Below, piece by piece: positions 8,391 through 43,101 of a DNA stretch of 44,632 nt. A program made the translations under genes and the position numbers. Numbering within the stretch: position 1 is the stretch's first letter; each line of letters opens with the position of its first letter. Source of the stretch: Salinivirgaceae bacterium (GTDB lineage: Bacteria > Bacteroidota > Bacteroidia > Bacteroidales > SZUA-534); assembly GCA_030620515.1 (NCBI GenBank), contig JAUXEM010000008.1, positions 1 through 44,632 of the forward strand. The letters are read 5' to 3'. The notes under the pieces are model-generated. The model was not told the DNA's origin and made no database searches. It saw nothing but the letters and a program-made list of their open reading frames with translations.

Positions 8391-10772
8391 CTACTTATTA
8401 GCTTCAATTGCTTCCTTTAATCGTGTATTTATTTCCTTTTCTTTAGTTCTATCAATAGTAATTAATAGAATTTTAGGTTGAATTCTATCTTGCTCAATAA
8501 CCATGTATTCTTCAGCAAGTATTTGTTCTTTATTGCGATGTTTAATAATTTGATTGCGTTTACCTTTACCATTTTTAATTAAACTCTCCCAAAAATCATT
8601 AAATTTCTCACGCAACTTTTCATCTTGCGCAATAAACGCATCGTAATATTTACCTTGAATAGTATCGAGTGTAACTCCATGAACCATTAATAATGAAGGA
8701 CTCATATCCAAAACTCTTCCATTAATATCTAATTCGGCTATCATCATGGATTTCTTCAGGGTTTTTATGTATGAGGATAAATCCGATTCCCTTTTTCCAG
8801 CTTCTTCTTGTGTAGCCTGCATTTCTTCTAAATTTTGACGCATCTCTTCTTCATGCTGAGCTAATTCGTCAGCCTGATCTCTCGACTGTTCAAGTAACTT
8901 AGCTGTGCTTAAATTGGTTTTTACACTAGATATAACCGAGGCAATATTTTCACTAAGCTTCTCAATAAATTCTAACTGATGCTCTAAAAATGAATCATAG
9001 GATAATATCTCCAATACTCCATAAGTAATTTCGTTAATTGTAAGAGGTGAGATTACAAGGTTAGTTGGACGTTCTTCATTCTGCATTCCGGGTGAAATTT
9101 CCACATACTCTTGAGGAATGTTTTGTAAATAAATTATCTTATTCTCATCCACAGCCCTACCCAAAAGCTCTTGTCCTCTGGTTACTGATTTGGTAAGCAT
9201 CACAGGCTTTCCGTATGCTATTGCAGCTTTTAAAACAAATAGATCACTATTTTGATTATCATAATCAGTTTCTTCTCCAATAAAAACAGCACCTTGAGCA
9301 ACGTCTAGATAAGCTATTAATTCATTAATCACATTTTCAGAAAATTTGGTCATATCATCATTATCTCTACGGATAACTTCACCAAACTTTGCTAAACCAT
9401 TGGTTACCCAATTTCTATTTGCATCCTCTTTCTTCTTTTTTTCTTCCTCATCATTTGCCTTTACTAAGCTTGCCTGCATATCCAATAAAGAATTACCAAG
9501 TTCATCCTTAGCACTTAACAATTCATATTCAGCCTCTAAGTTTCCTTTCCCTATTTCAGTAGCAAAATCAGATGCCGAATTCAAGCCATCATATAATTCA
9601 TTAATAGTATCTGCTAAGTCCCTTATTTCATCATTTACAGTACAAGTAACTTTACCTTTAGCGTCAATATTCCCTTTTGCCAATTCTTTAAGAGCATTTG
9701 TTATTCTTATTATTGGTCGTGAAATTGATCTGGCAATAAGTGCAATTACAATTGTTAAAAACAATAAACCTAATAATCCTATTACTAATGTAATTCGAAA
9801 GCTTTTATTTGCTTTCTGAAAAATTGTGTCGGTGGGGATAGAAACACAACACGTCCATGGTGTTTTTATGTTCCCTACAAAAAGAGGTTCAAAAGCAAAC
9901 AAGCATTCTTCACCTAAGAGAGAATTTACGTCGTAGAATTCAAACGACTCCCCGTCTGCAATTCTTTCTAGAATATTATGTTTTTGAACCATAACCGAGT
10001 CCAACACATTAATAGATTTATTGATTTGATTAGTATCAGGACATGAAATGAATACTCCTTCATTCGAGAATATATATATCTGTCCGTCACCCATTGGCTT
10101 AAATTCTTTAAACTTTTCTTGAAAAATCGACAATGGCGCGTCAATACCAACTACACCATAAAATTTACCCTCATTTATAATTGGTGCTATAACATTTGTT
10201 TGTAAAATCTCATCTGCTTTGGAATCAGTATAGGAATAATAATATGGTTCTAACAGTAAATCGCATCTACAGTCCTTTGCTTTAGTAAAATAGTCTTGAG
10301 CAAACAATTCTGTTGATGAATTCTTTTCTAAAATTATTTCCCCACCATCTTTATAATAACCAGGTGAAAAGCTGCCAATATAAGTATTGCCAGGTAATCC
10401 AATCTGTGTAGAATCTAATGAATCAATTGTATTTGGTTCCCATATTGTCCATACCGATAAAAAACTATGGTTTTGCTCAAGAGACTCGTGCATAATACTC
10501 ATGAAATACGTCCTTCTTTTATTCTCAGGAATGTGTTTAAAGTTTGAGAATAAACTATTTATGGTTGCTAAAGATTCTACGTATTCGTTCAAAGTACGTT
10601 TTGCAATACTGGCATACTTAAAAGTTTCTTTATGAGTGTTTGCTGTTGCATTCTCCGATGAAATATTATATAGTTTATAGCTTATATATCCAAAAGATCC
10701 AGTGTATATTAAGGCTATTACACCAAGAATATACAAAAGCATTTTACCATTTATGCGTAGTCTTAATTTCAT
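8391..10772 (-). CDS. Membrane receptor dCache-HAMP-GAF-PAS without kinase
   Basis: Signal-transduction protein of 793 residues. Order: transmembrane helix about 9-29; large extracytoplasmic dCache-like domain about 33-320 with SVWTIWEPNTID and PGYYKDGGE typical of Cache sensors; second helix about 325-347; HAMP about 348-400; GAF about 457-614; coiled coil with the Bacteroidota signature EEEMRQNLEEMQATQEEA; PAS about 665-785. It ends 12 residues after the PAS domain, with no histidine kinase, GGDEF, phosphatase or methyl-accepting domain. Output must go through a partner protein or through the coiled coil. Paralogue of the gene immediately upstream, 85 bp away, and probably cotranscribed. 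Confidence 0.85.
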   Translation of the reverse strand: MKLRLRINGKMLLYILGVIALIYTGSFGYISYKLYNISSENATANTHKETFKYASIAKRTLNEYVESLATINSLFSNFKHIPENKRRTYFMSIMHESLEQNHSFLSVWTIWEPNTIDSLDSTQIGLPGNTYIGSFSPGYYKDGGEIILEKNSSTELFAQDYFTKAKDCRCDLLLEPYYYSYTDSKADEILQTNVIAPIINEGKFYGVVGIDAPLSIFQEKFKEFKPMGDGQIYIFSNEGVFISCPDTNQINKSINVLDSVMVQKHNILERIADGESFEFYDVNSLLGEECLFAFEPLFVGNIKTPWTCCVSIPTDTIFQKANKSFRITLVIGLLGLLFLTIVIALIARSISRPIIRITNALKELAKGNIDAKGKVTCTVNDEIRDLADTINELYDGLNSASDFATEIGKGNLEAEYELLSAKDELGNSLLDMQASLVKANDEEEKKKKEDANRNWVTNGLAKFGEVIRRDNDDMTKFSENVINELIAYLDVAQGAVFIGEETDYDNQNSDLFVLKAAIAYGKPVMLTKSVTRGQELLGRAVDENKIIYLQNIPQEYVEISPGMQNEERPTNLVISPLTINEITYGVLEILSYDSFLEHQLEFIEKLSENIASVISSVKTNLSTAKLLEQSRDQADELAQHEEEMRQNLEEMQATQEEAGKRESDLSSYIKTLKKSMMIAELDINGRVLDMSPSLLMVHGVTLDTIQGKYYDAFIAQDEKLREKFNDFWESLIKNGKGKRNQIIKHRNKEQILAEEYMVIEQDRIQPKILLITIDRTKEKEINTRLKEAIEANK

Positions 10773-10857
10773 CTATTTTATTTTTTCAATTGGCAATTGC
10801 AACTACTTACCAAATATATTTATTCTTCAACAAGATTATTCCTTTACATTAATATAT

Positions 10858-13611
10858 CTAAACTTCCAGTAGTAATCCAAGTTCTTTAGCAGCTACCGCC
10901 CAATGTTTCTTAATTTTATTTAAAATAATAGACACTTTACTTAAGTTTTTATTGTCAATTAACAATCTCTCAATGTTTCTAAATTCCTCATAGATAGCCT
11001 TAAGCCCTATATAACTCATTTTAGTTTTAAGACTATTTATTCTTGATTTTAGTCGTTTATAATCTCTTGAGTTATTAATATCTTCCAGTTCTAATAATTG
11101 AGGTGGAAGGGTTTCGTAATAAAGTTTTAATATATTATAAATTTTTTGGGCATCCTTCTTATATAACATTTTCAAATATGTTAAATCGATTACTTCTAAT
11201 TTAATAGAAAAATCTACTTCATTTACTGTTTCAAGCAGCAAATCTTTTTCCTCATTAATTTGAGAAATCCTTCCTTCTGCAATTCTTTTTATTTCACTTT
11301 CGGTTTTTCTCTGTTCAGTTATATCAATACCTACGCACAGTATCCTTTGAACAATGCCATGCTGATTTTTTATGGGTAAATAGCTTTCTTGTATCCAAAA
11401 ATCTCTTTTTCCTGATTTATAGTATTCAACAGATTCTGATACAATTCCATTTTTCAAATCTTCCCATAATTGTATGTGTTTTTTCTGTTCCTCGTCGTCC
11501 ATAAACAGGTCAGATTTGTGTTTCTTACCAATAAGCTGAGCTTTTGGTAGTTTTAGAAGACTAAGGTAATTATTGTTTATTTCTATAAGTTTTCCATTAT
11601 AATCATATTCAGAAACCAGTAAAATTGCTTTGAAAGTTCCAATTAAACTGCTTAATTTCATTTCTCTTTTTGTAGCCTCTTCTTGTGTAGCTTGCATTTC
11701 CTCCATATTCTGTCGCATTTCCTCTTCTTGTTGCTCCAGTTCTTCTGCTTGTTTTTGCGATCTGTCAAGTAACTGCGCTGTGCGAACATTTACTTTAACC
11801 GTTGCAATTGTTGAAGCTATAGTTTCAGCTAATTTATCTACAAACTCTATTTGGTATTGATGCATCTCTTTTAGAGATTCTAACTCTAATACTCCAATCA
11901 TTTTCAGATTACTAATTAGCGGAACTATTAGAATTGAAGAGGGAATAGCCTGCCCTAGTCCTGAGGTGATCTTTGCATAATATTTAGGCACTTCATTTAT
12001 GAAAATTGTATCTTTCTCAAGAATACATCTACCTATTTCACCTTCGCCAGGTTTAATATTTTTTTTATTAAATTTTTCTTTTGAAAAACCTATGTGTGAA
12101 ATTAGTTCATATATATCACTATCATCGCGAGACTTTAAATAAATACCCCCCATATGAGCCCCTAAATAAATAGTAATTGTTTCTATAATACTATAGGTAA
12201 GATTTTCTAAATTTTGATTATCAACACGAAGAATCTTATTGAAAATATTCATACCCTGAGAAGCCCAATTCATATTTTCTTCCTCAACAATTCTTTGCTT
12301 CTCCTCTTCGCGAGCACTAGCTAAACTATTTCTCATTTCAAGAATTGCTCGTCCTAATATATCCTCCTTACTTAACTGGTTAAATTCATATGAATAATTT
12401 CCATTACCAATATTTTCAGCGAAGTTTGTCACTTGATTTAATCCATCAATAACAGTGTTTGTGGAATCTGCCATATCTTTAGTTTCATCGGCAGTATTTA
12501 TAACTAATTTTTTAACATTATGAACATCGCCACCTGCCAATTTTTTTACCAACTCAGTAGTTTTTTGTAATGGTGAGATTAAACCAATAGCATTAAAAAA
12601 TATAACTATTATAATAATTACTAAACCTAAAATTCCTGCATTAACAACAACCTTTAACATGCTATCTATCTGAGACTCAATAGTTATCAATGGGGCAGAC
12701 ACAACTACACACCATGGCGTTGCGGTATTTGCTATTTTAAAAGATGAAATAGCAAAATTCAGACTATCTATTCCCGATTTACTTTTTAATGTAAAGCTCG
12801 AATTTTCTCCTGATTGTATTCTATCTAAAATACTAAACGTACGAGCCAAAAGAGTATCTGTTTCAATAATATTGCTTCCTATTGTATTTTTGTTTGGATG
12901 ATAAATTATATCTCCATTAAAGGAGAAAAACATAATATCAAAGGCATTTGTACTCGATAAAGAATCTAATAACTGGTTATACTTGGTTAAGTTTAGCTCT
13001 GCCCCGACAATACCTGCAAACTCGTCATTAACAAGTATAGGCATCATTAGGCTAGTTTTAAAAATTTTGTCTACAGATTTTCCCGTATAGGAATGCCAAA
13101 CTGGATTTTCAATAGCCTCTTCAGGTAAAAGTTTTATAAAAGCATAATTATTCTCAAAATCATCCCCATCTAAATCTAAGGAATCAATAGTATGCTCAAG
13201 GTGTCCTGATTTCCAAATCTGATAGTTAGTAATTCTTCCGTATGGTAAGTCCCAATTATTATCGACAAAACGCAGTTCCCAAGAATCCCAGATGCCAACA
13301 AAATCTGTATTATTGCGTACGAGCTCAGCAGTAGTATTATTGAATATGTCTCTTTTACTATACCAGTCTAAAGTAGTATTGGTTTGCATTAATTGGGCTA
13401 TGGTACGTATTTTATCAAAATCTTTATTTAAATTAGTTTTAATTATTGATGCTAATTTAGCTGCCTCGTTACTATTTGTTTCAAAAGCCTCACTATAAGC
13501 AACTTTTTTAAAGTTCTTACTTATAATATTTGAAGAGATATAAAAAATTAATACTGAAATACTTAAAATAAGTACTAGCATTCTTATTAATAATCTGAAC
13601 CTAAATTTCAT
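10858..13611 (-). CDS. Membrane receptor dCache-HAMP-GAF-PAS with degenerate Hpt domain
   Basis: Paralogue of the downstream gene. The frame opens at 13659, but the ATG at 13611 (MKFRFRLLIRMLVL) aligns with the paralogue's start and puts the first helix at the N-terminus, giving 917 residues. In the longer numbering: dCache about 50-330, helix 333-358, HAMP to about 415, GAF about 475-630, coiled coil EEEMRQNMEEMQATQEEA, PAS about 672-790, then an Hpt-like bundle about 820-925. The bundle opens with IDLTYLKMLYKKDAQKI as in Hpt domains, but the phosphorylatable His of the HxLKG motif is Asn (INSLKTKM, residue 875). It therefore should not accept phosphate. No kinase domain is present. Confidence 0.83.
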   Translation of the reverse strand: MKFRFRLLIRMLVLILSISVLIFYISSNIISKNFKKVAYSEAFETNSNEAAKLASIIKTNLNKDFDKIRTIAQLMQTNTTLDWYSKRDIFNNTTAELVRNNTDFVGIWDSWELRFVDNNWDLPYGRITNYQIWKSGHLEHTIDSLDLDGDDFENNYAFIKLLPEEAIENPVWHSYTGKSVDKIFKTSLMMPILVNDEFAGIVGAELNLTKYNQLLDSLSSTNAFDIMFFSFNGDIIYHPNKNTIGSNIIETDTLLARTFSILDRIQSGENSSFTLKSKSGIDSLNFAISSFKIANTATPWCVVVSAPLITIESQIDSMLKVVVNAGILGLVIIIIVIFFNAIGLISPLQKTTELVKKLAGGDVHNVKKLVINTADETKDMADSTNTVIDGLNQVTNFAENIGNGNYSYEFNQLSKEDILGRAILEMRNSLASAREEEKQRIVEEENMNWASQGMNIFNKILRVDNQNLENLTYSIIETITIYLGAHMGGIYLKSRDDSDIYELISHIGFSKEKFNKKNIKPGEGEIGRCILEKDTIFINEVPKYYAKITSGLGQAIPSSILIVPLISNLKMIGVLELESLKEMHQYQIEFVDKLAETIASTIATVKVNVRTAQLLDRSQKQAEELEQQEEEMRQNMEEMQATQEEATKREMKLSSLIGTFKAILLVSEYDYNGKLIEINNNYLSLLKLPKAQLIGKKHKSDLFMDDEEQKKHIQLWEDLKNGIVSESVEYYKSGKRDFWIQESYLPIKNQHGIVQRILCVGIDITEQRKTESEIKRIAEGRISQINEEKDLLLETVNEVDFSIKLEVIDLTYLKMLYKKDAQKIYNILKLYYETLPPQLLELEDINNSRDYKRLKSRINSLKTKMSYIGLKAIYEEFRNIERLLIDNKNLSKVSIILNKIKKHWAVAAKELGLLLEV

Positions 13612-13880
13612 TCGTGAAGGCTTTTCTGTTATACTTAATTGTCCCCTTAAAAACTGCATATAAAACTAAACAATAATGAATAAGCCACATGACTATCCAC
13701 TTATGCTAATTTATGAATAAATATGAGGATTTTTTTTTTTAAAACCTCAATTATTATCTATAAATTGAGACGAACCTATTGAATATTATAAAATAGCACC
13801 CTAACATTCCAATATTTAGAAAGTATGGTTGCTACTGTATTAATATTTTAGTAAACATTTTTTAGTATGTTACAATAGAT

Positions 13881-14076: not shown

Positions 14077-15429
14077 TTAGTTAATGCGTTGTTGCATGAA
14101 AAGATTCATTTTATTTTTTTGCTGCTTACTAAAAAATCTTTCAAACTGAAATGTAGTATTCTTTGGTATAAAATTTGACTTAACCACAATACCCCCACAC
14201 AGTTGTATTGCTTGGGCTAATATAGGATCGTTAAGGTTGCCAAATGGCAGAGCATTCATCATTTCGTCTTTAATAAAATAATTAGGACTTAATCCATCTT
14301 TAAATTCTGTATAGCCATTTGCATTTGAGTACTTTAATACAATAGGCATCATTGCCCAATTATGTCTTGGGGGAGTTTCCATATCAGGAATTACCCACGA
14401 ACCAGTATATTTACCAAAAGTATTTTCTCCTATTGATACAACATTCATGTATGGCATTAAGCCTATCATTACTAATTCACTAGCAGATGCAGTGCCTCTA
14501 GCGCATAGGAAATATATATTGCTTAAATCTAGATTTACATCATTCTCAATGAATCTTATCTCTCTTTCTACTATAGAAGATATAGCATTAAGTTTATTGT
14601 TGTAATTAATATTAGTAAGTATCGACTTATTGTTTATTACGCTGGTAGGGGCAATTGCAGACGACAACCATTGAGCAGAGTTCATATAACCACCGCCATT
14701 ATAGCGAAAATCAACAATTAATTCATCAATTCCTGATGTCTTAAAACGCTTAAGAGATTCACCAACATGTTGAATAAATGCTGCATCATCAATAAATTCA
14801 GTTATAACACAATAACCAATTTTTGTATTATTTGATTCAAAAATAGTATCAAAAACAACTGGATTTACTTGTATTAACTCGGCATTCATATACAATTTTT
14901 CGTCTGTAATTTGCAAGCCATTACTTGTGTTTTCAGCAAGAGTTAAAGTTTGTGTGTTAGAATGAAACAAATCAGCATAGTTGTTAGTATTTAATTGCTT
15001 ATCATTAATTTCCATTACAATATCGCCTCTTTGCAATCCAGCTTTGGCAGCAGGTGAGTTAGGATATACATACTCAATTACCATAAAAACATTGTTTGAT
15101 CCAGTAAACTGCCCAAAGGTGGGTGAGTAACCCATGGTAACTGGTTCACCTGTTAAGCTTGCCATTAAACCAGCATAGTCATCGGTTATGTACGACCATT
15201 TATCTTCCTGGTCGTATGTTAAACTATAAAAGTAATCTTCTGGATACATAGAACCCGGCACATTATTATCCTCAATATTGTTACACCAAAAATAAAAATC
15301 GTTCATATTAGTGTATATCCAATTATTCTCTACTGTATACAAACTATCCTCATGTTTATCGCAACTTGGTAATACAAATGATAAACTAATAAATAGAATA
15401 ATGTTAATTATATAGAACTTTTTTTCCAT
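14077..15429 (-). CDS. S41-family (C-terminal processing) peptidase lipoprotein with PDZ domain
   Basis: Secreted serine peptidase of 450 residues. Lipoprotein signal ends LSFVLPSC, so it is predicted to be membrane-anchored. A PDZ domain lies about 110-165 (EYVYPNSPAAKAGLQRGDIV). The S41 catalytic domain has the Ser in TASASELVMIG (Ser315) and the Lys in GENTFGKYTG (Lys340), exactly 25 residues apart as in CtpA/D1P peptidases, plus DFRYNGGGY. It is predicted active. It starts 33 bp after the stop of the second KASIII-SDR gene and is the last gene of that operon by spacing, though it has no evident biosynthetic role there. Confidence 0.88.
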   Translation of the reverse strand: MEKKFYIINIILFISLSFVLPSCDKHEDSLYTVENNWIYTNMNDFYFWCNNIEDNNVPGSMYPEDYFYSLTYDQEDKWSYITDDYAGLMASLTGEPVTMGYSPTFGQFTGSNNVFMVIEYVYPNSPAAKAGLQRGDIVMEINDKQLNTNNYADLFHSNTQTLTLAENTSNGLQITDEKLYMNAELIQVNPVVFDTIFESNNTKIGYCVITEFIDDAAFIQHVGESLKRFKTSGIDELIVDFRYNGGGYMNSAQWLSSAIAPTSVINNKSILTNINYNNKLNAISSIVEREIRFIENDVNLDLSNIYFLCARGTASASELVMIGLMPYMNVVSIGENTFGKYTGSWVIPDMETPPRHNWAMMPIVLKYSNANGYTEFKDGLSPNYFIKDEMMNALPFGNLNDPILAQAIQLCGGIVVKSNFIPKNTTFQFERFFSKQQKNKMNLFMQQRIN

Positions 15430-15462: not shown

Positions 15463-17316
15463 TTAGATATCTACCTCTAGCTGATACCCATCACGTCTAA
15501 CTACCAAGGCGTTTTCATAATTATGATGCGTTCCTTCTACCTTAGGTATATATAATGAATTTACAATTCGAAATGCCGTTTCATTAGCTAGCAATGGTTT
15601 TTCCTGTCCTATTTCTACGGTAAACTGATATAAAGCTTTTGGATCAATGTTCCGAAGCATTCCTTCGCTTAATACTCCAGGAATATACCAAACTAAATAA
15701 TTCCCAGCTTTTAGTATTTCACCACTCATTGAAGCCATTGTACCATGCAAGCTCCTTTTTGCCGAAATAAAATTGTGTATTTCTGGAACATTAACATCTT
15801 CAGCGGCAGCACCCACAAAAAGAGCAGTCCCTTTTAAGTAAGGTATAATACTTTTGAATATTTTTAATGGCGCATAATGATTAACATTCAACACCTTACC
15901 CTTTTTTCTGCTCATTAAAACACCTGCTGCATTTACAAAGAAATTAATTTCTCTATCCTTACAAACCAAAATTTCAATAATCCTTTCTATTTGCTCTTTT
16001 ACATTAAAATTAGCCTGATAGCTTTCCGCTACTACATTATTATTTTTGGCAAATAATTCTAATTCTGCAATTTTCTGATTATGCTTATTATAATGTAAAA
16101 TTACATTTGCTCCTCGTACTATAAGTTCCTTTGCTATTTCAGAACCTAAAGTCCCACTTGCTCCCAGAACCAGAGCAGTTTTTTCCTTTAAATCTCCTTT
16201 AAAAAGGCGGGTTAATTTTTCCAATGAATATTTTTTTTCAGGTACCACATAAGAAAATGCTCCGTAGTTTCCCCCTACTCCGGCCATTGGGCTAAGTATT
16301 TTCATTCCTGGCTTTAGTTTTCCAGCTTTGTTTAGCATGGAGAAAGCTATTGGAACAGTTGCTCCTGAAATATTTCCATATTCATGCTGTGCTTCTAAGT
16401 AAACTTGTTGTGGTGTTAAACCAAGCAGTTTTGCTGCCGGATATAATATAGCATTCCCAGTTTGGTGCGGCACACATAAATCTACATCTTCTGCTTTCCA
16501 ATCCGATTTATTTAATATTTCAACAGAAGCTTCTGGAATATTTTTTATTGCTCGGTCTTTAATAAGTGAATCATCCATATATAGATTCCAATTTTTATCG
16601 ACTCCAACAAAATCAACCATTTGCATATCCTGATAATTATTCACGTTTAAAACACCCTGTGGAGTATCTGTTTCAGTGCGACTTAATACCACAAAAGCAG
16701 CGCCATCGGCAAAGGTTACAAAAGGAACAAATTTAACCCTTTGCGTTAAAAAGGACGACATTGTTTCGGCATGCCCAACAACTACATGTTTTGCTTCTGA
16801 ATTAGCTTTTAAATACTCAATAGCCCTTTCCAAATTAATATTAAAACCAGCACAACCTGATGTTAATGTATAAGCAGGTTTAAAATTGTTAAATGCAACA
16901 AAATGTGATTTAATAGCTGCTGCAATACCTGGGGCTTTTTGATGTGGTGAAACCGTACTTACAAACCATGCATCAATCTGCTTAGGCGTTATGCCGGCAT
17001 CTTTCATTGCCATATCTGCTGCTTTTACCCCAAGTTCAAGAGAGGTTTCAGCATAATTTAATTTTTTTCTCGTGGGAGGAAAAGGCGTAACATGCCAACG
17101 TGTAATAAAGCCCATTTTCTCACGCACAAAATAATCAAAGGGTCCAATATCATGATGCTTCACTTTATAGGCTTGGTAATTCTTGCTTTTTGCCATTCTT
17201 TCTTCATCAAAGCCACGTAAGAACCCTTTACGTAGTGCATCGGCAATAAACTCATTGCTTATTTGAAATTTACCTGCCGAATGACCCATCCCCGAGAAAA
17301 TATAGCTAGTTATCAT
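15463..17316 (-). CDS. KASIII-SDR fusion with inactive SDR half
   Basis: Two-domain protein of 617 residues. Residues 1-360 are a ketoacyl synthase III (FabH/thiolase fold) with Cys155 (TSGCAGFN), His284 (VPHQTGNA) and Asn315 (YGNISGAT) all present. Residues 375-617 are a short-chain dehydrogenase/reductase with the NAD(P) loop GASGTLG. The SDR catalytic residues are altered: the Ser 13 before the Tyr is Ala503, and YxxxK is FISAK (Phe516, Lys520). The reductase half is therefore predicted inactive while the condensing half looks competent. Same length and residue numbering as the paralogue at 18558-20411. It starts 8 bp after the ALDH-like gene and is probably translationally coupled. Confidence 0.88.
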   Translation of the reverse strand: MITSYIFSGMGHSAGKFQISNEFIADALRKGFLRGFDEERMAKSKNYQAYKVKHHDIGPFDYFVREKMGFITRWHVTPFPPTRKKLNYAETSLELGVKAADMAMKDAGITPKQIDAWFVSTVSPHQKAPGIAAAIKSHFVAFNNFKPAYTLTSGCAGFNINLERAIEYLKANSEAKHVVVGHAETMSSFLTQRVKFVPFVTFADGAAFVVLSRTETDTPQGVLNVNNYQDMQMVDFVGVDKNWNLYMDDSLIKDRAIKNIPEASVEILNKSDWKAEDVDLCVPHQTGNAILYPAAKLLGLTPQQVYLEAQHEYGNISGATVPIAFSMLNKAGKLKPGMKILSPMAGVGGNYGAFSYVVPEKKYSLEKLTRLFKGDLKEKTALVLGASGTLGSEIAKELIVRGANVILHYNKHNQKIAELELFAKNNNVVAESYQANFNVKEQIERIIEILVCKDREINFFVNAAGVLMSRKKGKVLNVNHYAPLKIFKSIIPYLKGTALFVGAAAEDVNVPEIHNFISAKRSLHGTMASMSGEILKAGNYLVWYIPGVLSEGMLRNIDPKALYQFTVEIGQEKPLLANETAFRIVNSLYIPKVEGTHHNYENALVVRRDGYQLEVDI

Positions 17317-17324
17317 ATGCTGTA

Positions 17325-18545
17325 TTATTTTGTAAACGTTTCTAACAAACTAAAACTCCCTGATTTGGCTTCCCAATTTGTTTCTTTGCTTAATGTAAAA
17401 CCTGAATTTTTGTATCCACCCCAAGTTCCAATGTAACCATTTTCAGTAGTAATAATATCAAGAATAGATTTATTCTTTAACACCATAATATGTTCTTTTA
17501 ATATTTCAGGTGTAAGTTGGTCTATTTCTTCTTCAGCCCCCCATAAGGTGGTGTAAATACCATAGTTAGTATTATTAATTTCCTTAGCAATTTCATTAAA
17601 ATCAAGAAAAACAATGGGTAATACTGGAGCAAAATGATAATCTTTCCAAATATTAGAATCCGTATTATGCAACCATATTAAACTAGGAGAAATTAGCGTG
17701 CTTTTTTCATTCTTATTTACACTATAATTCGTGATAATAGAATCTTTTTTTTCCGCTTCGCTAACTCTTTGTTCCAGTTGCTCTATTAAATATGGTGGAA
17801 TAATTGGAGTTACATAATTACTAGGATCCTCTCCACAAGTAATTTTCATTAACTTATCGTAAAATAAAGCTGCCACTTTAACTTTATCAATTCTGTTATC
17901 AATTATACAACGATTAATAGAAACTGCTACTTGACCAGAAAGAATGAAAGCCGATTCCAGAATTTTATCAATAGCTTGTTCTATATTAATATCTGATAGT
18001 ATTACTGCAGTGTTATTTCCGGGTCCATAGTAGGTTAAAGATTTAATCTTTTTAAACTCATCAATATATTTATACACCCACTTATCTCCAAAAACAACAC
18101 AATGTTTAATTGTTGTCATGGATAAAGTTTTGCTCATAAAATTCTTTGTGCCATAGCAAAAACTAAGGTTTGGTAATAAGTCACTATTCGAAATTAGTTT
18201 CTCAAGACACAAGCCATATTTTTTTAATATACTCGGAAAACCTATTAAAATATGTGCATTATTACCACCCAATTTAATAGCTGGTGCTAATACCATTCCA
18301 AATAAGGAAAACGAAGGGTCTCCATAACAAGAGTAAGCTGAGACACCTCCTGATAATTCTGAAGTGTGAGAAAGATTAATGCCTACATATGCTCTCAGCG
18401 ATGCTATTCCTCTTTCAATATTCTCAACATTAGTTTGCAAAGAGGTAAGTACATCTTCGGTATTGGCTTTTGCTATATCAAGCTTATTCTTCTCTAATAA
18501 ATCTGCTAAATTATTTAGCAAGTTGTTGTTCTCACTTGTTGTCAT
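17325..18545 (-). CDS. Aldehyde dehydrogenase-like protein lacking the catalytic cysteine
   Basis: Protein of 406 residues with the ALDH fold signature in its second half: TYYGPGNNTAVILSD (the usual ELGG region), SGQVAVSINR (usually GQxC), FAPVLPIVFLDFNEIAKEIN and GGYKNSG near the C-terminus. The nucleophile position is Ala207, and the general-base Glu of ELGG is replaced by Tyr at about 173, so ordinary aldehyde oxidation or acyl-CoA reduction is not expected. It is shorter than most ALDHs (about 480-500). It sits between the two KASIII-SDR genes with 12- and 8-bp gaps, which suggests a structural or acyl-binding partner of those enzymes. LuxC-type acyl reductase is an alternative, but it too needs a Cys. 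Confidence 0.75.
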   Translation of the reverse strand: MTTSENNNLLNNLADLLEKNKLDIAKANTEDVLTSLQTNVENIERGIASLRAYVGINLSHTSELSGGVSAYSCYGDPSFSLFGMVLAPAIKLGGNNAHILIGFPSILKKYGLCLEKLISNSDLLPNLSFCYGTKNFMSKTLSMTTIKHCVVFGDKWVYKYIDEFKKIKSLTYYGPGNNTAVILSDINIEQAIDKILESAFILSGQVAVSINRCIIDNRIDKVKVAALFYDKLMKITCGEDPSNYVTPIIPPYLIEQLEQRVSEAEKKDSIITNYSVNKNEKSTLISPSLIWLHNTDSNIWKDYHFAPVLPIVFLDFNEIAKEINNTNYGIYTTLWGAEEEIDQLTPEILKEHIMVLKNKSILDIITTENGYIGTWGGYKNSGFTLSKETNWEAKSGSFSLLETFTK

Positions 18546-18557
18546 TTTCTATAATGC

Positions 18558-20411
18558 TTAATATTTTGTATATCCATCTTTTCGTACGGTTAATACTCCA
18601 TGATATTCGGTACGAACATTAGCTACTTTAGGAATATACATTGATTTTACTATACGACCAGCGATATCTTTAAGAGGTATTAAATGCTTCTGTCCAACGG
18701 CCAACATCGATCCTTGAATTTGAGCGTCGTTTAACACTTCGGTCATTCCACCATTAATAACTCCAGGTATGTAATAAACACATTTTATGTTTGGATATTG
18801 AAGGCGAGCATAGCCAGATGCAAATCCAAATAAACCGCGTTTTGAAGCAACATAAGAAGATGAACCACTAAACTGTGCATCTTGTGCAATTGATCCTGTA
18901 AACAAAACAGTTTCAGTTAAAATATCGGTTAATCCCTCGGTTAATCGTTGCTGATTCACATGGTTTATATTTTCAACCCACTCCATTTCTTCATCGCTTA
19001 CTTCCGAAGCTTTAGAAAGGCTACCCGTAACAGCAACAGTATGAATTAAAAAATTTAACTCCTTTGTTTCGTTCTTAACTTGCTGAATGAGAGTGTCTAT
19101 TTCAGCTTCTTCGGCAAAATTAGCTTTTAAGCAGATATGCTTTAATTGCTGATTTGGAAGTTCAGAAAGTATTTTTTGAGCTTTATCGGCATTGGAATTG
19201 TAATGCAATATTACCCTACAACCTTTATCGGCTAATTGACGTGATATTTCACCTCCTAAACCGCCAGTGCAACCTGTTACTAGAGCAATTTTATTTTCCA
19301 GATCATTGTTTCGAGGTGTAAACCCACTTTTTTCAGGAACAATGTAGGAGAATCCTCCAAGCTCACCACCAAGCCCAGTAACTGAAGTAACAATTTTCAT
19401 TCCTGCCAATAATCGCTTATTCATTTTTAAATAAGCCAAGGAGGCTGGTATCGATGCTCCAGACAAGTTGCCAAATTCATACTGTATTTCTTGAAACACC
19501 TTCTCAGGTGGCATATCTAATTTTTTACCTGCACTATGCACAATAGCGTTTCCTGTTTGATGCGGTATGAATAAGTCTATTGTATCTTTTGTCCAATTTT
19601 GTTTTTCAAGCAATTCATTTGCTGACCTAACAATATTTGGTACAGCTCTCCACTTAACTCTTCGAGGATCCATAATTAGATTCCCCTTACGATCAGCTCC
19701 CAAAAAGTCAATCATTGCCATATCTTCATAATTTACCACATCGAGTATTCCTTCTTTTTTATCAGACTGCACCCTACTAACAATCACTGCGGCAGCCCCA
19801 TCTCCAAAAGTAGTAAACGGCACAAAATCATTTTCGTTGAGCAATAAATTACTCATTACCTCAGTATGTGCAACCACAATATGATTAGCCTCTGGGTGAC
19901 TTTTAAAATAGCTTACTGCTCTCTCAATATTGATATTAAAACCAACGCATGCCGATGTAGTTGTCATGGTTTGGGTACGGTTATCCATTTGGGTAAAAAA
20001 GCATTTTGCTGTTTCGGCAATACCTGGAGCCATTTCATGAGGAGTAGCTGTTCCTATAATCCAAGCAGCAACATCCTCTGGGTGAACTCCCGAATCATCA
20101 AAAGCCTTTTGAATTGCCCCAACCAACAAATCTAAGCTAGATTCAGCAGTTTCGTAAAGCTCGGCTCTTGGAGGAAATGGAACAACATGATAGCGGGTTT
20201 TAAACCCCATCATGTGCTCTGCCATATAATCGAATGGCTCAACAGTAGGAAGCTTCTCTTTTACCGCTTTAAATTTATCCGAATGTGTAATTCTTTCCTT
20301 ATCTAAACCAGTAAAATAGTTATTATCAATTAGTTTATCAATATCGCTATTGCTTACTTTATGTTTACCAGTAACAAATCCATATCCGCTAAATATTAAA
20401 TTCTCGTACAT
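18558..20411 (-). CDS. KASIII-SDR fusion with intact active sites
   Basis: 617 residues. N-terminal ketoacyl synthase III with Cys155 (TTSACVGFN), His284 (IPHQTGNA) and Asn315 (FGNLSGAS), the FabH-type triad. C-terminal short-chain dehydrogenase with the cofactor loop TGCTGGLGGE (about 379-388) and an intact triad Ser507, Tyr520, Lys524 (SYVASK). A single chain could therefore condense two acyl units and reduce the 3-keto product. KASIII domains can use acyl-CoA or acyl-ACP; nothing here decides which. The first 85 residues, including GFKTRYHVVPFPPR, are shared with the paralogue and differ from housekeeping FabH at 40407-41408. It lies 68 bp after the crotonase gene. Confidence 0.9.
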   Translation of the reverse strand: MYENLIFSGYGFVTGKHKVSNSDIDKLIDNNYFTGLDKERITHSDKFKAVKEKLPTVEPFDYMAEHMMGFKTRYHVVPFPPRAELYETAESSLDLLVGAIQKAFDDSGVHPEDVAAWIIGTATPHEMAPGIAETAKCFFTQMDNRTQTMTTTSACVGFNINIERAVSYFKSHPEANHIVVAHTEVMSNLLLNENDFVPFTTFGDGAAAVIVSRVQSDKKEGILDVVNYEDMAMIDFLGADRKGNLIMDPRRVKWRAVPNIVRSANELLEKQNWTKDTIDLFIPHQTGNAIVHSAGKKLDMPPEKVFQEIQYEFGNLSGASIPASLAYLKMNKRLLAGMKIVTSVTGLGGELGGFSYIVPEKSGFTPRNNDLENKIALVTGCTGGLGGEISRQLADKGCRVILHYNSNADKAQKILSELPNQQLKHICLKANFAEEAEIDTLIQQVKNETKELNFLIHTVAVTGSLSKASEVSDEEMEWVENINHVNQQRLTEGLTDILTETVLFTGSIAQDAQFSGSSSYVASKRGLFGFASGYARLQYPNIKCVYYIPGVINGGMTEVLNDAQIQGSMLAVGQKHLIPLKDIAGRIVKSMYIPKVANVRTEYHGVLTVRKDGYTKY

Positions 20412-20479
20412 TAATTTAGTGCTTTGGGTTATTAACTAAATATCTTTTATTTAAAATTTTTAATAAGCTTAAAAAACTA

Positions 20480-21235
20480 TTAGTTTTTCTCAAATTTACT
20501 TTCAATCTCTTTGTGTCCTTTTTTCGATAGTAGTGAAGAAAACCACATGGCCTCCTTTTTATATATCTCACGCAAGTTGGTTTTACTATTCTCACGCAAC
20601 ATCTTTTTTATGGCAACTAAGGCCTCTTTTGATGCTTTTCCGAAATATTCAGCTTGTTCACTTAATTCTTTTTTAAACGCATTAAGCAAAACTACATTCT
20701 GAATAAGACCAGCATTTAATGCCTTGTTCAAAGGAATGTCGTCTCCTGTGAGTAAATAAAAAGAGGCATCGGCATTTCCTAAGTGAATAGGTAGCTGAAC
20801 GGTCCCACCAGCGCCTGGTATCATACCATATCGCACTTCAGGTAAGGCAAGGCGAGTATTGTCAGCACATATACAAAAGTCGCAATGCATTGCTAATTCC
20901 AAACCGCCACCAAAACAGATACCTGAAATAAAAGCAACTACAGGTACTTCTATTTCATTCAATAACTGAAAAGTAGTTTGTACAAAAGCGCTTCTTTTTT
21001 CAGCCTCCTTTTGGTCAAGAGCTTTCATTTCAATTAAATCGCCCCCTGCACTAAATGCTTTATCGTTACCAAGTAAAAATAATGCTTTAATGTTTCTTAT
21101 ATTATTAGCTTCGGTAAACGCATGGTTTAGCTCAATTACCATATCAATACATAACGCATTATGTTTTTGTGGTCGGTTTAGGGTTACATATAAAATGTTA
21201 TTTTCAATTTTCGTTAGAATATATATATAGTTCAT
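20480..21235 (-). CDS. Enoyl-CoA hydratase/isomerase (crotonase) family protein
   Basis: 251-residue crotonase-fold enzyme. The oxyanion-hole segments are GNDKAFSAGGDL and SGICFGGGLELAMHCD. Both catalytic Glu residues of classical hydratases are present (GGLELAMHCD and LPEVRYGMIPGAGGT), so hydration/dehydration of enoyl thioesters is the likely reaction. First gene of the operon that continues into the two KASIII-SDR fusions; dehydration of the 3-hydroxy product would be a logical next step after SDR reduction. A role in ordinary beta-oxidation cannot be excluded, but no thiolase or acyl-CoA dehydrogenase is nearby. Confidence 0.88.
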   Translation of the reverse strand: MNYIYILTKIENNILYVTLNRPQKHNALCIDMVIELNHAFTEANNIRNIKALFLLGNDKAFSAGGDLIEMKALDQKEAEKRSAFVQTTFQLLNEIEVPVVAFISGICFGGGLELAMHCDFCICADNTRLALPEVRYGMIPGAGGTVQLPIHLGNADASFYLLTGDDIPLNKALNAGLIQNVVLLNAFKKELSEQAEYFGKASKEALVAIKKMLRENSKTNLREIYKKEAMWFSSLLSKKGHKEIESKFEKN

Positions 21236-21447: not shown

Positions 21448-22182
21448 CTAAACAGCTAAACAATCACCAATCTTTTCTTTTACTATATCAAGCAATTGCT
21501 CGCTATCAACACTATTCCTATCAATAGGCTCTAATGCAGTATATTTTAATCGTATTCCAATATTAAGAGGAAACTTCCCCCATTTATGTAATTTGTAATT
21601 ACCATTTACTACAAAAGGAACAATTAATGCTGTGGGCGCTGCTTTCAGCAAAGTTTTAAAACCTGCCTCTTGGAACTTACGAAGCTCACCTGTCGTACTC
21701 CGTGAACCTTCAGGAAAAATACATGCCGACCAGTATTTGCTTTCCATATTCTTTCCAAGTTTGAGAATCTCTTTAATTGATTGGGACCCATTCTTTCTAT
21801 CAATAAGAACAGAACCTCCATTTTTAAGATTGTAGGATATTCCAGATAGTTTTTTACTCAGCTCTTTTTTAGATATATATTTTGGATGATGCTTTCTAAA
21901 AGCCCATCCAATTGGAGCTATATCGTACATGCTTTGATGGTTTGAAACTATTATGAATGGCGTATCTTTTGGTAATTTGCTAATTCCACGAAAACTTGGG
22001 CGACATAGCAATAAATACACTGTTTGCACTAGTAAAAAGTTAAGCACATCAATGACATTTTTATGGGCTTGATAACCAAAAACTTTTAAAGCAATTGCCT
22101 GAATAGGGTGAGAAATTATTACAATTGCAATGAAAGCGAAATAGTGAATGGCAGATAAAAAAACGGCTAATATTTTTTTCAT
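21448..22182 (-). CDS. plsC: 1-acyl-sn-glycerol-3-phosphate acyltransferase family protein
   Basis: Membrane acyltransferase that esterifies lysophosphatidate or a similar lipid. Hydrophobic N-terminal segments, then the catalytic HX4D motif in NHQSMYDI, the acceptor-binding FPEGSRSTTGE, and VPFVVNGNYKLHKWGKFPLNIG. The open frame begins at 22263, but the ATG at 22182 (MKKILAVFLSAIHYF) starts at the first membrane segment as in other PlsC proteins, giving 244 residues. It is the first gene of this minus-strand run, 212 bp before the crotonase gene, and may install the product of the downstream KASIII-SDR operon into a lipid; that link is inference. Confidence 0.87.
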   Translation of the reverse strand: MKKILAVFLSAIHYFAFIAIVIISHPIQAIALKVFGYQAHKNVIDVLNFLLVQTVYLLLCRPSFRGISKLPKDTPFIIVSNHQSMYDIAPIGWAFRKHHPKYISKKELSKKLSGISYNLKNGGSVLIDRKNGSQSIKEILKLGKNMESKYWSACIFPEGSRSTTGELRKFQEAGFKTLLKAAPTALIVPFVVNGNYKLHKWGKFPLNIGIRLKYTALEPIDRNSVDSEQLLDIVKEKIGDCLAV

Positions 22183-22689: not shown

Positions 22690-23147
22690 ATGTATAGTAA
22701 ATATATGATATTCAACTATCTATAGCTAATGTTAAAAATGGTGCTAGTCCTTTTGATGCAGTAATAGTTAAGGATGGGGAAATTATTTCTGCTTCTGCTA
22801 TCAGTGTAACTATTGAGAATAACCCAACAGCCCATGCCGAGGTAAATGCAATTATAAAAGCTTGTAAAGCATTAAAAACTTTTGATTTATCAGGATATGT
22901 TATATACACTTCGTGTAAAACTTGCCCAATGTGCTTGGGTACAATTTATTGGGCACATATTCACAAGATGGTTAATGGCAATAATAAAACCGATGCTCGA
23001 AATATTGGCTTCGATAATTCTTTTATTTACGATGAAATTGATTTAGCGATAGATAAACGAAAAGTTAGCTTCACACAACTTTTGCCTAAAAAGACCATTA
23101 AGGCTTTTGATGCTTGGCAGGACAACGAGGACAAGGTTGCGTATTAG
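22690..23147 (+). pseudogene. Guanine deaminase / nucleoside deaminase, 5' frameshift
   Basis: A frame open from 22701 to the TAG at 23147 reads as a cytidine-deaminase-fold guanine deaminase (GuaD family): SPFDAVIVKDGEII, the zinc/catalytic NPTAHAEVNAI, the zinc cysteines in TSCKTCPMCLGTIYWA, and a C-terminal GFDNSFIYDEID and FDAWQDN typical of GuaD. The frame has no start codon before the active site; its first ATG (22929) is inside the zinc motif. An ATG at 22690 begins MYSKYM in another frame, matching where the protein should start, and hits a stop at 22723. A frameshift near 22706-22720 is the simplest reading. The catalytic residues are intact, so the loss is recent or a sequencing error. 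Confidence 0.75.
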
Positions 23148-23302: not shown

Positions 23303-24193
23303 CTACTCAATTATATGTGTTCTAATTTGTTTAGTTAAAGTTCTAATCTGTTCAATTTGTTCATCGCTTAAATTAATAAGGGCTCCCTCTGCAACAAAAA
23401 TTTTTCTTTTAGATGTATCAATAACCAAACTCTCAGAAGGGAATTTTATTTCCATTTCTTCAAACAAATTATTCATCTTTTTAATAAGCAGAAAGTACTC
23501 CGATACACTTATTTTATTTTGCGACATCTGCATAAGTTTAAACAAACTATTGGCTGAGAATTTCTGCGAAGCAACCCTACTAACTATTCTTTCATCGGGT
23601 CGGTCATACATATTTATAGCTATATATAATGTTTCAATCCAACCTCCAAATAGAATTAAACTAGCGGTATGTTCTCGTCCCGAATCTTTTAAATAAACCT
23701 CTGCTGTATAATACGATTCACGAGCTATAGAAATTAAAGTATCTAAATTGTTAACGTGGTTTTCAGCATCGTTAATAGTAAAATCCACAAAATCACGAGG
23801 AATCCCAAGCTGATCAGAAAGTACCTGAATAGCTATTAAATATGAATTAGCCTGTTGCGATTGATTAAACAGCCACAAATAACTTATATCGGCACCATAC
23901 ACACCCAAATTTAAAGCTGCTTTAACACTTTCATTATAATTGGTAATATTATTTAATGGATTTAATAACGATGAGTTATAAAACGAAACATCCTTAGTAA
24001 GCAAATAAGATAAATCAACTGGTGAAAAAAGATTATAAAAGACAATGTCTTCCATTTTATAATCACTAGCATTAAATTCCACAACATTTGTTTCTATGCT
24101 CTCTTTACTATTATCTTGTTGTTCTTGTGTGTTGTTTGTGCAAGCAAACCCTACAATTAGAGAAACAAATATTAATCCGAATATTTTATTCAT
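23303..24193 (-). CDS. Uncharacterised lipoprotein, paralogue 1
   Basis: 296-residue protein I do not recognise. N-terminal lipoprotein signal MNKIFGLIFVSLIVGFAC, then an acidic linker and a mostly helical domain. It is clearly paralogous to the protein at 24859-25761: both contain the core NSSLLNPLNNI..YNES or its close variant, LGVYGADISYLW, a D-LGIP segment, a GGW-ET segment and a final E-ReL/IRT tail. Predicted to sit on a membrane surface facing the periplasm or outside. No enzyme motif is visible. The two copies flank a small gene on the other strand. Confidence 0.8.
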   Translation of the reverse strand: MNKIFGLIFVSLIVGFACTNNTQEQQDNSKESIETNVVEFNASDYKMEDIVFYNLFSPVDLSYLLTKDVSFYNSSLLNPLNNITNYNESVKAALNLGVYGADISYLWLFNQSQQANSYLIAIQVLSDQLGIPRDFVDFTINDAENHVNNLDTLISIARESYYTAEVYLKDSGREHTASLILFGGWIETLYIAINMYDRPDERIVSRVASQKFSANSLFKLMQMSQNKISVSEYFLLIKKMNNLFEEMEIKFPSESLVIDTSKRKIFVAEGALINLSDEQIEQIRTLTKQIRTHIIE

Positions 24194-24858: not shown

Positions 24859-25761
24859 CTAATTAATTATTAATTCACGAATCTCTGTTATCTGACTTTT
24901 TAATTGCTCAAACTCTTCTGGGCTAATCTCCAATTCTTTTGTTGAATTAAAAGTAATTGTCTTCCGTAAAGTATCAATTACTAATTGATCGGAAAAGTGA
25001 ATATTTTGTAGACGATCAAACTCTTCCAACAAATCATTAAGCTTATTGCCATAAACGGTTAATAATGCATTGTCTGGTTGTTTATATAATAAATTCAACA
25101 GGCTTGCTAACGAATATTTTTGACTAATAATTTTACATGCCATTCGGCTGTTTGGATGTGTATAAAGAAAAACTGCTGTATGCATTGTTTCAACCCAGCC
25201 TCCTAATAATACCAATACAGCTAAATCCTGCTGATCTCTTTCAATTAAATATTTATCGCAAGCGTAGTATGCTTGTCGAGCTATATGAATTAATGTGTCA
25301 ATATTATCGGTATACATTTCCGCTTTGTTTGCTGAGATATCAACATACTCTTCTGGTATTCCAAGGTCGTCAGCTAATTGTTTAATTGCTGTAAAATAAG
25401 AAAGAGCTTGCTGACCTTGCTTAAATACCCAAAGGTAGCTTAAGTCAGCCCCGTATACGCCAAGAGCGGTAGCCCTTTGAGTGCTTTCATTATATTTTGA
25501 GATATTATTTAGTGGATTTAGCAAAGTAGAATTGTAATAGGAATTCCGTTTATCAATTAGTACACCCAAATCAATAGGATACAACATATTATAGAATATA
25601 ACATCTTCCTCCACTTCGCCAGATACTTGTAGTATTAATTCAATGGAAGAATCCGTAGCTGCATCTATTTTATCTTGATCTAATTTATTACTGTTGTTTT
25701 TACTTGTACAACTTAACAACAGCAATCCGAATATTATTATTACATAGTTAGACTTGAACAT
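24859..25761 (-). CDS. Uncharacterised lipoprotein, paralogue 2
   Basis: 300 residues with lipoprotein signal MFKSNYVIIIFGLLLLSC and an extracytoplasmic helical domain. Same family as 23303-24193; conserved pieces include YNSTLLNPLNNISKYNES, ALGVYGADLSYLWVF, DDLGIPEEYVDIS, IARQAYYACDKYL and LLGGWVETMHTAV. The pair probably arose by tandem duplication, with the 61-residue gene and a palindromic repeat now between them. No known domain or catalytic motif is visible. Confidence 0.8.
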   Translation of the reverse strand: MFKSNYVIIIFGLLLLSCTSKNNSNKLDQDKIDAATDSSIELILQVSGEVEEDVIFYNMLYPIDLGVLIDKRNSYYNSTLLNPLNNISKYNESTQRATALGVYGADLSYLWVFKQGQQALSYFTAIKQLADDLGIPEEYVDISANKAEMYTDNIDTLIHIARQAYYACDKYLIERDQQDLAVLVLLGGWVETMHTAVFLYTHPNSRMACKIISQKYSLASLLNLLYKQPDNALLTVYGNKLNDLLEEFDRLQNIHFSDQLVIDTLRKTITFNSTKELEISPEEFEQLKSQITEIRELIIN

Positions 25762-40406: not shown

Positions 40407-41408
40407 TTATTTATCACTGTTATATCCCCACTTTAAAAAGATTGAGCCCCAAGTAAACCCAGCTCCAAATGCAGATAAAATAAGATTATCGCCTTTTTCC
40501 AGCTGATTTTCCCATTCCCACAAACATAACGGAATAGTTGCAGATGTAGTATTTCCATACATCTGAATATTTACCATTACTTTTTCGGGGGCAAGCTCCA
40601 TGCGTTTTGCTGTTGCCTCGATAATACGATTATTTGCTTGATGTGGTACTAACCAGGCAATATCATTGGCGGTTAAATTATTACGCTCCATAATTTCAAC
40701 AGAAACGTCGGCCATTTTAGATACAGCATGCTTAAATACAGGTTGTCCCTCTTGATAAACATAGTGCATTTTTTTGTCGATTGTTTCGTGCGATGAAGGA
40801 TAACATGAACCACCAGCCTTCATGTGTAAATAATGACGACCCATACCATCGGAACGAGCAATATAATCCATCAATCCAATATTTTCTGAAGTAGGTTCAA
40901 GCATAACAGCAGTAGCTGCATCTCCAAAAAGAGGACAAGTTGTACGGTCAGTATAATCGACAACTGCCGACATTTTTTCCGCACTAACTACAATAACTTT
41001 TTTATACTGACCTGATTCAACAAATTTAGAGGCTGTAATTAAAGTATAAATAAATCCGGAACATCCAGCATTAATATCAAAATGAAATGCTTTCTTAATT
41101 CCTACTTTATCGGCAATAACACTTGCAGTAGATGGAAAAAGCATGTCGGGTGTAACAGTAGAGCAAAGTACCAAATCAATTTCATCGGGAGAAGTGTTTG
41201 TTTTTTCAAGCAGTTGTTTAACTGCTCGTTCGCCCATAAAAGAAGCTCCTTCACCTTTTTCTTTTAGAATGTGCCTTTCTTTTATTCCCACTCTGGTCAT
41301 TATCCACTCATCTGTGGTATCAACCATTTTGCCTAATTCATGATTATCAAGAATATAGTCGGGGACATAAGCTCCAACACCGGTAATTGTTGCTCTAATT
41401 TTTGACAT
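40407..41408 (-). CDS. fabH: 3-oxoacyl-[ACP] synthase III
   Basis: 333-residue KASIII that starts fatty-acid synthesis by condensing acetyl-CoA with malonyl-ACP. Catalytic Cys in [11 protein letters not shown], His in [11 protein letters not shown] and Asn in [25 protein letters not shown] and [12 protein letters not shown] near the N-terminus are standard FabH. Its ATG overlaps the plsX stop by one base (TAATG), so the two are translationally coupled. It is the housekeeping counterpart of the two KASIII-SDR fusions. Confidence 0.96.
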
Positions 41409-42349
41409 TATTGATATAATTCTATTATTTTTTCTGAAACGTGTGCTTCAATAACACTCTTTGTTTTAAATATCATTGCTTTAATAGTTGAATCATTGGA
41501 AACACCGTGTCCAATCATTACGGTGGAGTTCACTCCTAAAATAGGTGTACCTCCAACATTCTCAAAATTAAAGCCTTCCAAAAATTCGTTTTGAATACCT
41601 TGTTTTCTTAACAAGTCGTACATTCCTTCTGCTTGTTTAAGCACGATGTTTCCGGTAAATCCATCGCACACAACAACATCAGCAGGGCAATCGCCAAATA
41701 ATTGATTGCCTTCAATGTTTCCAATAAAATTAAAATCTTTATTGTCTTTCATAAGGTCGAATGCTCCTTTAACAACAAGACTTCCTTTTTTATTTTCGGA
41801 ACCAATATTTAGTAATGCTACTTTAGGTTTATCAATACCGTAAACTTCGCGAGAATAAACAGAACCAATTGCACCATACTGATATAATACATCAGGACGA
41901 CAATCGGGGTTTATACCCACATCGAGCAATATTGTTTTTTTGTTGTTAAATTGTGGCAGTTCAGTAGAAATACACGGACGTATTACACCAGGAATAGATT
42001 TCACAGTGTACATTGTACCTACCAACATTGCACCAGTATTTCCAGCACTGGCAAAACCATCAATCTTTTTTTTATATAGCATGCCAAAACCCTTGGCAAT
42101 ACTTGAATTTGGTTTTGCACTAAAAGCTTTTGCAGGATGTTCCCCCATTTCAATAACTTCTTCAGCATGTACAACTTCAAAACTATTACGATCAACTTTT
42201 TCAGCATCTAGTATTTCATAGATTTTAGCTTGATCGCCAATTAGCACGAGCTGCACATCTTTAGAAAGTTCCTTTAGGGCAAGGATTGCTCCTTTAACCG
42301 TTGAATTGGGTGCGAAATCGCCACCCATAATATCCACACCTATTCTCAT
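41408..42349 (-). CDS. plsX: Phosphate acyltransferase PlsX
   Basis: 313-residue enzyme that makes acyl-phosphate from acyl-ACP for phospholipid synthesis; peripheral at the inner membrane. [20 protein letters not shown] at the start, [42 protein letters not shown], and [17 protein letters not shown] are the family motifs. Standard rpmF-plsX-fabH order. Confidence 0.97.
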
Positions 42350-42382
42350 ATAAGGTTTATTGGATTATTTCGCCTAAGCGAA

Positions 42383-42568
42383 TTATGCTGTAACTACTTT
42401 CTCAACTGCTAATTTTCCACGGTAAAATCCGCATTCAGGACATACGTGGTGGTATTGAACAGTAGTTCCACAATTTGAACATTTTGACAAAGTAGGTGCA
42501 ACTGCTTTGTAGTGTGTTCTTCTCTTATTTCTTCTTTGTTTTGAAATCTTGTGTTTAGGATGTGCCAT
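42383..42568 (-). CDS. rpmF: Ribosomal protein bL32
   Basis: 61 residues. MAHPKHKISKQRRNKRRTHY is the classic L32 N-terminus, and CSNCGTTVQYHHVCPECGFY keeps all four zinc-binding cysteines (the C+ form). 20 bp after the DUF177 gene, 33 bp before plsX. Confidence 0.97.
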   Translation of the reverse strand: MAHPKHKISKQRRNKRRTHYKAVAPTLSKCSNCGTTVQYHHVCPECGFYRGKLAVEKVVTA

Positions 42569-42588
42569 TTCTCAATCGCTTTTAAATT

Positions 42589-43101
42589 CTAATTAATTAA
42601 ATCTCTTAATTTATCCCATCTGGGATCATCTATCTCGTTATTATTATCTCCTTGGAATTCATTTAGTTTATCAATCATTTTATGGTTACATAAACTATTT
42701 CCTTTTGCATCATTGGGGTGCAATTTTTGAAATGGCAAGCTTAAATTAATAAACTCAAAAAAATATTCTGCCATATCAAGATAATCTTCTGCATCCGATA
42801 ATACAATTAGTTCCTCTGATATTTCATATGTCTCGTCGCCGTATTCAAAAAACAACTTGCCTGAGTAATCAACATTTTCTAGATACTCATCAAGGCATCT
42901 GTCGCATGGAACTATAACTGTTCCTATAATCGTAAAAAAACATTCCATGCCTGTTGAACGTTTAACTAGCTCAACATGTGCTTCGAGTTTTCCTTCATTC
43001 ATTTCCGATTCAGGAAAATTTTCAAAGAACTTATTGTCTAAAGAAAAGTCGTATTTGTACTTTCCCTCTTTTAATCCCCTAAAAGGAATTTTATAATCCA
43101 T
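42589..43101 (-). CDS. DUF177 / YceD-family protein
   Basis: 170-residue cytosolic protein of the family linked to 23S rRNA accumulation. The CDRCL motif after PCDRCLDEY and a second conserved block in the C-terminal part mark it, and DUF177 upstream of rpmF is the widely conserved gene order. The family is needed for normal large-subunit rRNA in E. coli and plants; the exact activity is not established. A promoter box lies at 43137-43144. Confidence 0.9.
   Translation of the reverse strand: MDYKIPFRGLKEGKYKYDFSLDNKFFENFPESEMNEGKLEAHVELVKRSTGMECFFTIIGTVIVPCDRCLDEYLENVDYSGKLFFEYGDETYEISEELIVLSDAEDYLDMAEYFFEFINLSLPFQKLHPNDAKGNSLCNHKMIDKLNEFQGDNNNEIDDPRWDKLRDLIN

Follow-up and report, generated by a model that had tools for sequence, protein, structure and literature searches.

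Gene Content and Organization of the Locus

The locus lies within a window of 44,632 nucleotides (the whole stretch of DNA analysed) on contig JAUXEM010000008.1 of a Salinivirgaceae bacterium, whose genome is a draft assembly of 3.9 Mb in 319 contigs. Four open reading frames, all on the minus strand, follow each other in the order crotonase, fusion B, ALDH homologue, and fusion A. The crotonase-fold enoyl-CoA hydratase (20480..21235) matches Pfam ECH_1 (5e-53) and carries the catalytic glutamates E113 and E133. Fusion B (18558..20411) joins a KASIII domain (residues 1-361) to an active-type SDR domain (residues ~368-617), as delineated by Pfam, residue comparison, and an AF2 model. The ALDH homologue (17325..18545), a 406 residues-long protein assigned by Pfam Aldedh (7e-30) and by fold matches, has Ala in place of the catalytic Cys and is read as a pseudoenzyme of the ALDH superfamily. 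Fusion A (15463..17316), defined by Pfam and a residue table, harbors a KASIII domain with an intact Cys-His-Asn triad followed by a degenerate SDR domain. Both fusions are 617 residues long, and each comprises the ACP_syn_III/ACP_syn_III_C and adh_short Pfam domains. The gaps are 68 bp between crotonase and fusion B, 12 bp between fusion B and the ALDH homologue, and 8 bp between the latter and fusion A; the reading frames thus stand at the positions first claimed, and the compact four-gene operon of the sequence-only reading is confirmed. No carrier protein, ligase, thioesterase, or enoyl reductase is found within the gene cluster, and promoter-like sites at the locus do not exceed the shuffled expectation.

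A PlsC-like acyltransferase (21448..22182, minus strand, Pfam Acyltransferase, with a probable ATG start at 22182 and its end at 21448) lies 212 bp upstream of the crotonase gene and is not tightly coupled to it. A link between PlsC and the cluster, raised earlier, is not supported: an orthologue occupies the same neighbourhood in G001, a genome of the source family (f1) devoid of the fusions, and none was found in G002, which possesses them. An S41/PDZ peptidase (14077..15429, minus strand, NCBIfam GFO_1087 family, below cut-off), located 33 bp downstream of fusion A and absent from the sequence-only description, is also present in f1 genomes lacking A and B. Since both genes occur in relatives without the fusions, they are probably bystanders. 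Further neighbours, cyclophilins and an ion channel among them, are lineage-local and were likewise rejected as partners.

Further along the window, two related Cache/GAF sensor proteins are encoded in tandem downstream of the cluster (8391-13659, minus strand), and two adjoining paralogous lipoprotein-like genes without a Pfam match occupy 23303-24193 and 24859-25761 (minus strand). An open frame at 22700-23140 (plus strand), for which no start codon is listed, resembles nucleoside/guanine deaminases in its HAEVNAI and CKTCPMC motifs and is possibly a truncated gene. The canonical fabH, FA_synthesis, and YceD genes (40407-43101, minus strand) form the ordinary fatty-acid initiation locus of this genome.

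KASIII Domains

The AF2 model of fusion B has a pLDDT of 90.2, and its KASIII domain superimposes on FabH with a Z-score of 42.5 and an rmsd of 1.6 over 307 residues. FabH is the nearest relative of the domain both in sequence and in structure, PqsD being also among the close matches, and OleA ranks below FabH, PqsD, and BioZ in the structural comparison. The catalytic triad of fusion B is Cys155-His284-Asn315. The Cys, His, and Asn are kept by A and B in every row examined, and the KASIII and SDR triad residues listed for fusion B are invariant in B rows from five families. With the Cys-His-Asn triad present in both and the thiolase fold modelled for B, the KASIII domains of A and B qualify by these features as FabH-type condensing enzymes. 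The fusions score 106-140 bits against the curated FabH families of NCBIfam, for which the cut-offs are 249-292; these generic FabH families give the best scores, and neither fusion fits a curated equivalog. Judged by these cut-offs, the sequences of A and B define a divergent KASIII subgroup that is not FabH proper.

Two substitutions bear on the substrates of these domains. At the position of FabH Phe87, which limits primer size, Ala occurs in all 34 A/B rows covering it in the first set, with a single Thr in the rows added later, and the genome's own FabH retains Phe. A bulky residue at this position is reported to favour acetyl-CoA, and a smaller one long-chain primers (PMC3734052). Its replacement by Ala in both KASIII domains leads us to predict bulky or long acyl primers, a prediction drawn from a single residue position read off an alignment. 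The position of FabH Arg249 is occupied by Ala or Val in A and B; in E. coli FabH, this arginine is important for ACP docking. Crotonases normally act on CoA esters, and FabH extends on ACP. The loss of Arg249, together with a CoA-type crotonase, hints at a CoA-linked chemistry.

SDR Domains and Partner Proteins

The SDR domains are most similar in sequence to FabG-like reductases. SDR-B possesses a Ser507-Tyr520-Lys524 triad, kept in every complete B row, and the Rossmann Gly motif accompanies Ser-Tyr-Lys in 14 of 14 B rows; it therefore looks like an active, classical SDR reductase. In SDR-A of the locus, the catalytic Ser is replaced by Ala and the Tyr by Phe, the Lys being kept, so that SDR-B alone looks active here and SDR-A has probably lost its reductase activity. 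Pfam upholds the domains of the two KASIII-SDR fusions proposed earlier, but the reductase of fusion A is predicted to be dead. SDR-A is degenerate in families f1, f81, and f115, and intact in f82 and f90. Within f1, the degenerate SDR-A shows a mean pairwise identity of 64.7 per cent, compared to 67.6 per cent for SDR-B, with almost no indels. This near-equal conservation argues for a retained structural role. The SDR-A of f115 has drifted further (45.7 per cent mean pairwise identity).

Where the catalytic Cys of aldehyde dehydrogenases would follow the GQ motif, 6 of 6 ALDH homologues (the locus protein and five relatives) carry Ala. The description of the locus protein as cysteine-less was thus correct, and it is predicted not to be a catalytic aldehyde dehydrogenase. 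Its predicted structure, a modest model with a pLDDT of 74.5, matches ALDH folds. The gene is an optional extra, found in some genomes only.

All 19 cluster crotonases examined keep the GGG oxyanion motif as well as both catalytic Glu; they accordingly have the residues expected of enoyl-CoA hydratases and are putatively assigned as such. Within f1, 5 of 5 near-complete genomes with A and B possess the cluster crotonase clade, including G005 and G007, where it lies far from the fusions; among the f1 genomes without A and B, 0 of 4 tested harbor this clade, and they have distant crotonases only. Such a co-occurrence would arise once in 126 if genomes were independent; as the f1 genomes are related, it constitutes support and not proof. 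No crotonase lies next to the A/B pair in f90 or in part of the f81 genomes. Given this absence and the degeneracy of SDR-A in three families, only A plus B are strictly core. In one f81 genus (g87; L060, L061, and L074), a cyclophilin gene is located directly upstream of B, at the place held by the crotonase in other f81 genomes.

Distribution and Evolution of the A/B Pair

Fusions A and B occur together in five Bacteroidales families (f1, f81, f82, f90, and f115). An order-wide sample yielded fusions in 15 of 393 genomes, belonging to 7 genera. Family-wide searches retrieved a fusion in 30 of 31 f81 genomes (21 of 21 of good quality), 6 of 6 f115 genomes, and 3 of 3 f82 genomes. The distribution in f1 is patchy, genera g1, g3, g4, and g6 having fusions and g2, g5, and g7 having none. 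Class-wide and phylum-wide samples of 395 genomes each returned the source genome only, hence no carrier outside Bacteroidales among the genomes of these samples, and no plasmid-borne relatives were found at E 1e-30.

In a tree of 36 rows, a branch supported at 100/99 divides the 18 A sequences from the 18 B sequences, and f81 clusters with f1 within each half. The duplication thus appears older than the families, and A and B are best described, from this tree, as ancient paralogues. Nearly all genomes with one fusion also have the other; the few with a single copy are G009, G011, and G312, together with a fragment in G1137, some of them being fragmented or incomplete.

In every locus read where the fusions adjoin, B comes before A. 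The order crotonase-B-ALDH-A is observed in f1 (G000, G002), f82 (3 of 3), and f81 (G1148). Loci of the form crotonase-B-A, without the ALDH gene, are found in f81 and f115, and the pair B-A stands alone in G005, one f90 genome, and some of the f81 genomes. The crotonase-B-(ALDH)-A order thereby recurs in four families, and this identical order in other families of Bacteroidales places the arrangement far beyond chance. A and B are on separate contigs or far apart in G003, G007, G108, G133, and G1124. A candidate natural B-A single chain (a 1094-residue frame in G1151, L106:3045-6329) was discarded, as the frame crosses an N run corresponding to a scaffold gap. The neighbourhood search suggested by the sequence-only reading therefore bears out the A/B pair in five families, with the crotonase as a usual companion and the ALDH-like gene in some genomes, but not PlsC.

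Proposed Function and Alternative Readings

The A/B system is real and conserved. The open-licence papers searched contain no characterised counterpart of this gene set, as had been stated earlier, and within that scope the system is uncharacterised. The condense-reduce-dehydrate pathway originally put forward stands in that a dedicated gene set co-occurs elsewhere; with one reductase predicted dead and the ALDH-like gene optional, "pathway" keeps the status of a candidate. The reading we favour, to which we give an even chance, is that of a conserved two-KASIII module building an acyl chain (by condensation, reduction, and dehydration) for a lineage-specific lipid, its carrier and product being hypothetical. 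The analysis establishes the architecture, the active-site content, the pairing, the gene order, and the co-occurrence of the genes; the steps that follow are predicted. Weighing against the module are the lack of carrier, ligase, thioesterase, and enoyl reductase genes in the cluster, the reduction of the strict core to A plus B, the single position from which primer size is read, and the different carriers usual for crotonases (CoA) and FabH (ACP). In KASIII-B, Cys155 would take up a bulky or long acyl primer, with acyl-CoA as its probable source, for condensation with a malonyl thioester. SDR-B would then turn the 3-oxo product into a 3-hydroxy product using NAD(P)H, to be dehydrated by the crotonase into a 2-enoyl thioester. 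KASIII-A, with its own intact triad, may perform a second or alternative condensation, the product of which would be reduced by SDR-B within an A/B complex or stay a ketone. SDR-A would be retained as a structural domain in the source lineage, and the ALDH homologue, where present, could be a non-catalytic binding or scaffold partner. The near-universality of the A/B pair in some families makes a structural or physiological lipid likelier than an occasional secondary metabolite.

Other readings have to be weighed against this module. A and B might be extra FabH paralogues with a built-in FabG, initiating type II fatty acid synthesis on ACP from primers that are branched or odd, with normal FAS left to finish the chain. 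The proximity of the KASIII domain to FabH and of the SDR to FabG-like reductases agrees with this unlikely variant, and FAS could supply the ACP and enoyl reductase that the cluster lacks; however, the genome already has a canonical fabH (40407-41408) beside a plsX-type FA_synthesis gene, the Phe87 and Arg249 positions are altered to Ala and Ala/Val, and the companion gene is a crotonase and not FabZ. An unlikely, bolder version of the module is a bacterial elongase-like system, in which an A/B hetero-oligomer would extend preformed long or branched acyl-CoA outside FAS, with the pseudo-reductase and pseudo-ALDH as structural components and a family-marking lipid as the product.

A head-to-head condensation of two acyl groups as in OleA, followed by SDR reduction into long 2-alkyl-3-hydroxy acids, ketones, or beta-lactones, is quite unlikely. 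The combination of a thiolase-fold enzyme with an SDR does parallel OleA plus OleD (PMC7064751), and the small residue at the Phe87 position gives room for long chains. However, no OleB or OleC type gene is detected by Pfam among the window genes scanned or recurs as a conserved neighbour, as the earlier exclusion of an Ole cluster had it, and OleA has the lower structural rank noted above. Furthermore, the fusions have Ala at the loop position of FabH Phe87, the presumed equivalent of OleA Glu117. On present evidence from the window genes scanned and the conserved neighbours, the A/B system does not look Ole-type. Finally, the closeness of PqsD in structure and sequence could evoke a diffusible small molecule of the signal, pyrone, resorcinol, or quinolone type, but genes for an activating ligase, for export, or for tailoring do not recur nearby, and a secondary metabolite would not usually be near-universal across whole families, making this reading very unlikely.

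The two-KASIII module that we favour brings together a gene set near-universal in some families, a pair of condensing enzymes inherited together, and two inactive but conserved enzyme relatives, which point to an unknown lipid or acyl product. It could also exemplify a division of labour within a duplicated KASIII pair.

Comparison with Known Systems

As proposed, the module would carry out the equivalent of one or two rounds of fatty-acid synthesis. FabH plus FabG of type II FAS have the same folds as the fusions, and the catalytic triads are shared by KASIII-A, KASIII-B, and SDR-B. In contrast to them, A and B are single-chain fusions forming a duplicated pair, with an N-terminal insertion of roughly 30 residues, the Phe87 to Ala and Arg249 to Ala/Val replacements, a degenerate SDR-A, and a crotonase companion. 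The OleA/OleD olefin and beta-lactone pathway likewise relies on a thiolase-fold condensing enzyme working with an SDR; A and B, however, show no OleB/OleC nearby, possess Ala at the presumed position of a Glu in the cross-subunit loop, and are nearer to FabH. PqsD and BioZ share with A and B a FabH-like fold with an altered primer specificity, predicted in the case of A and B, but are stand-alone proteins without an SDR and in other gene contexts, whereas A and B are fused to theirs. The eukaryotic fatty-acid elongase cycle (KCS, KCR, HCD, ECR) follows a common logic of condensing, reducing, and dehydrating on preformed acyl groups; A and B differ from it as fused bacterial enzymes, in a set devoid of enoyl reductase and with a CoA dependence that, as read from the genes, is putative.
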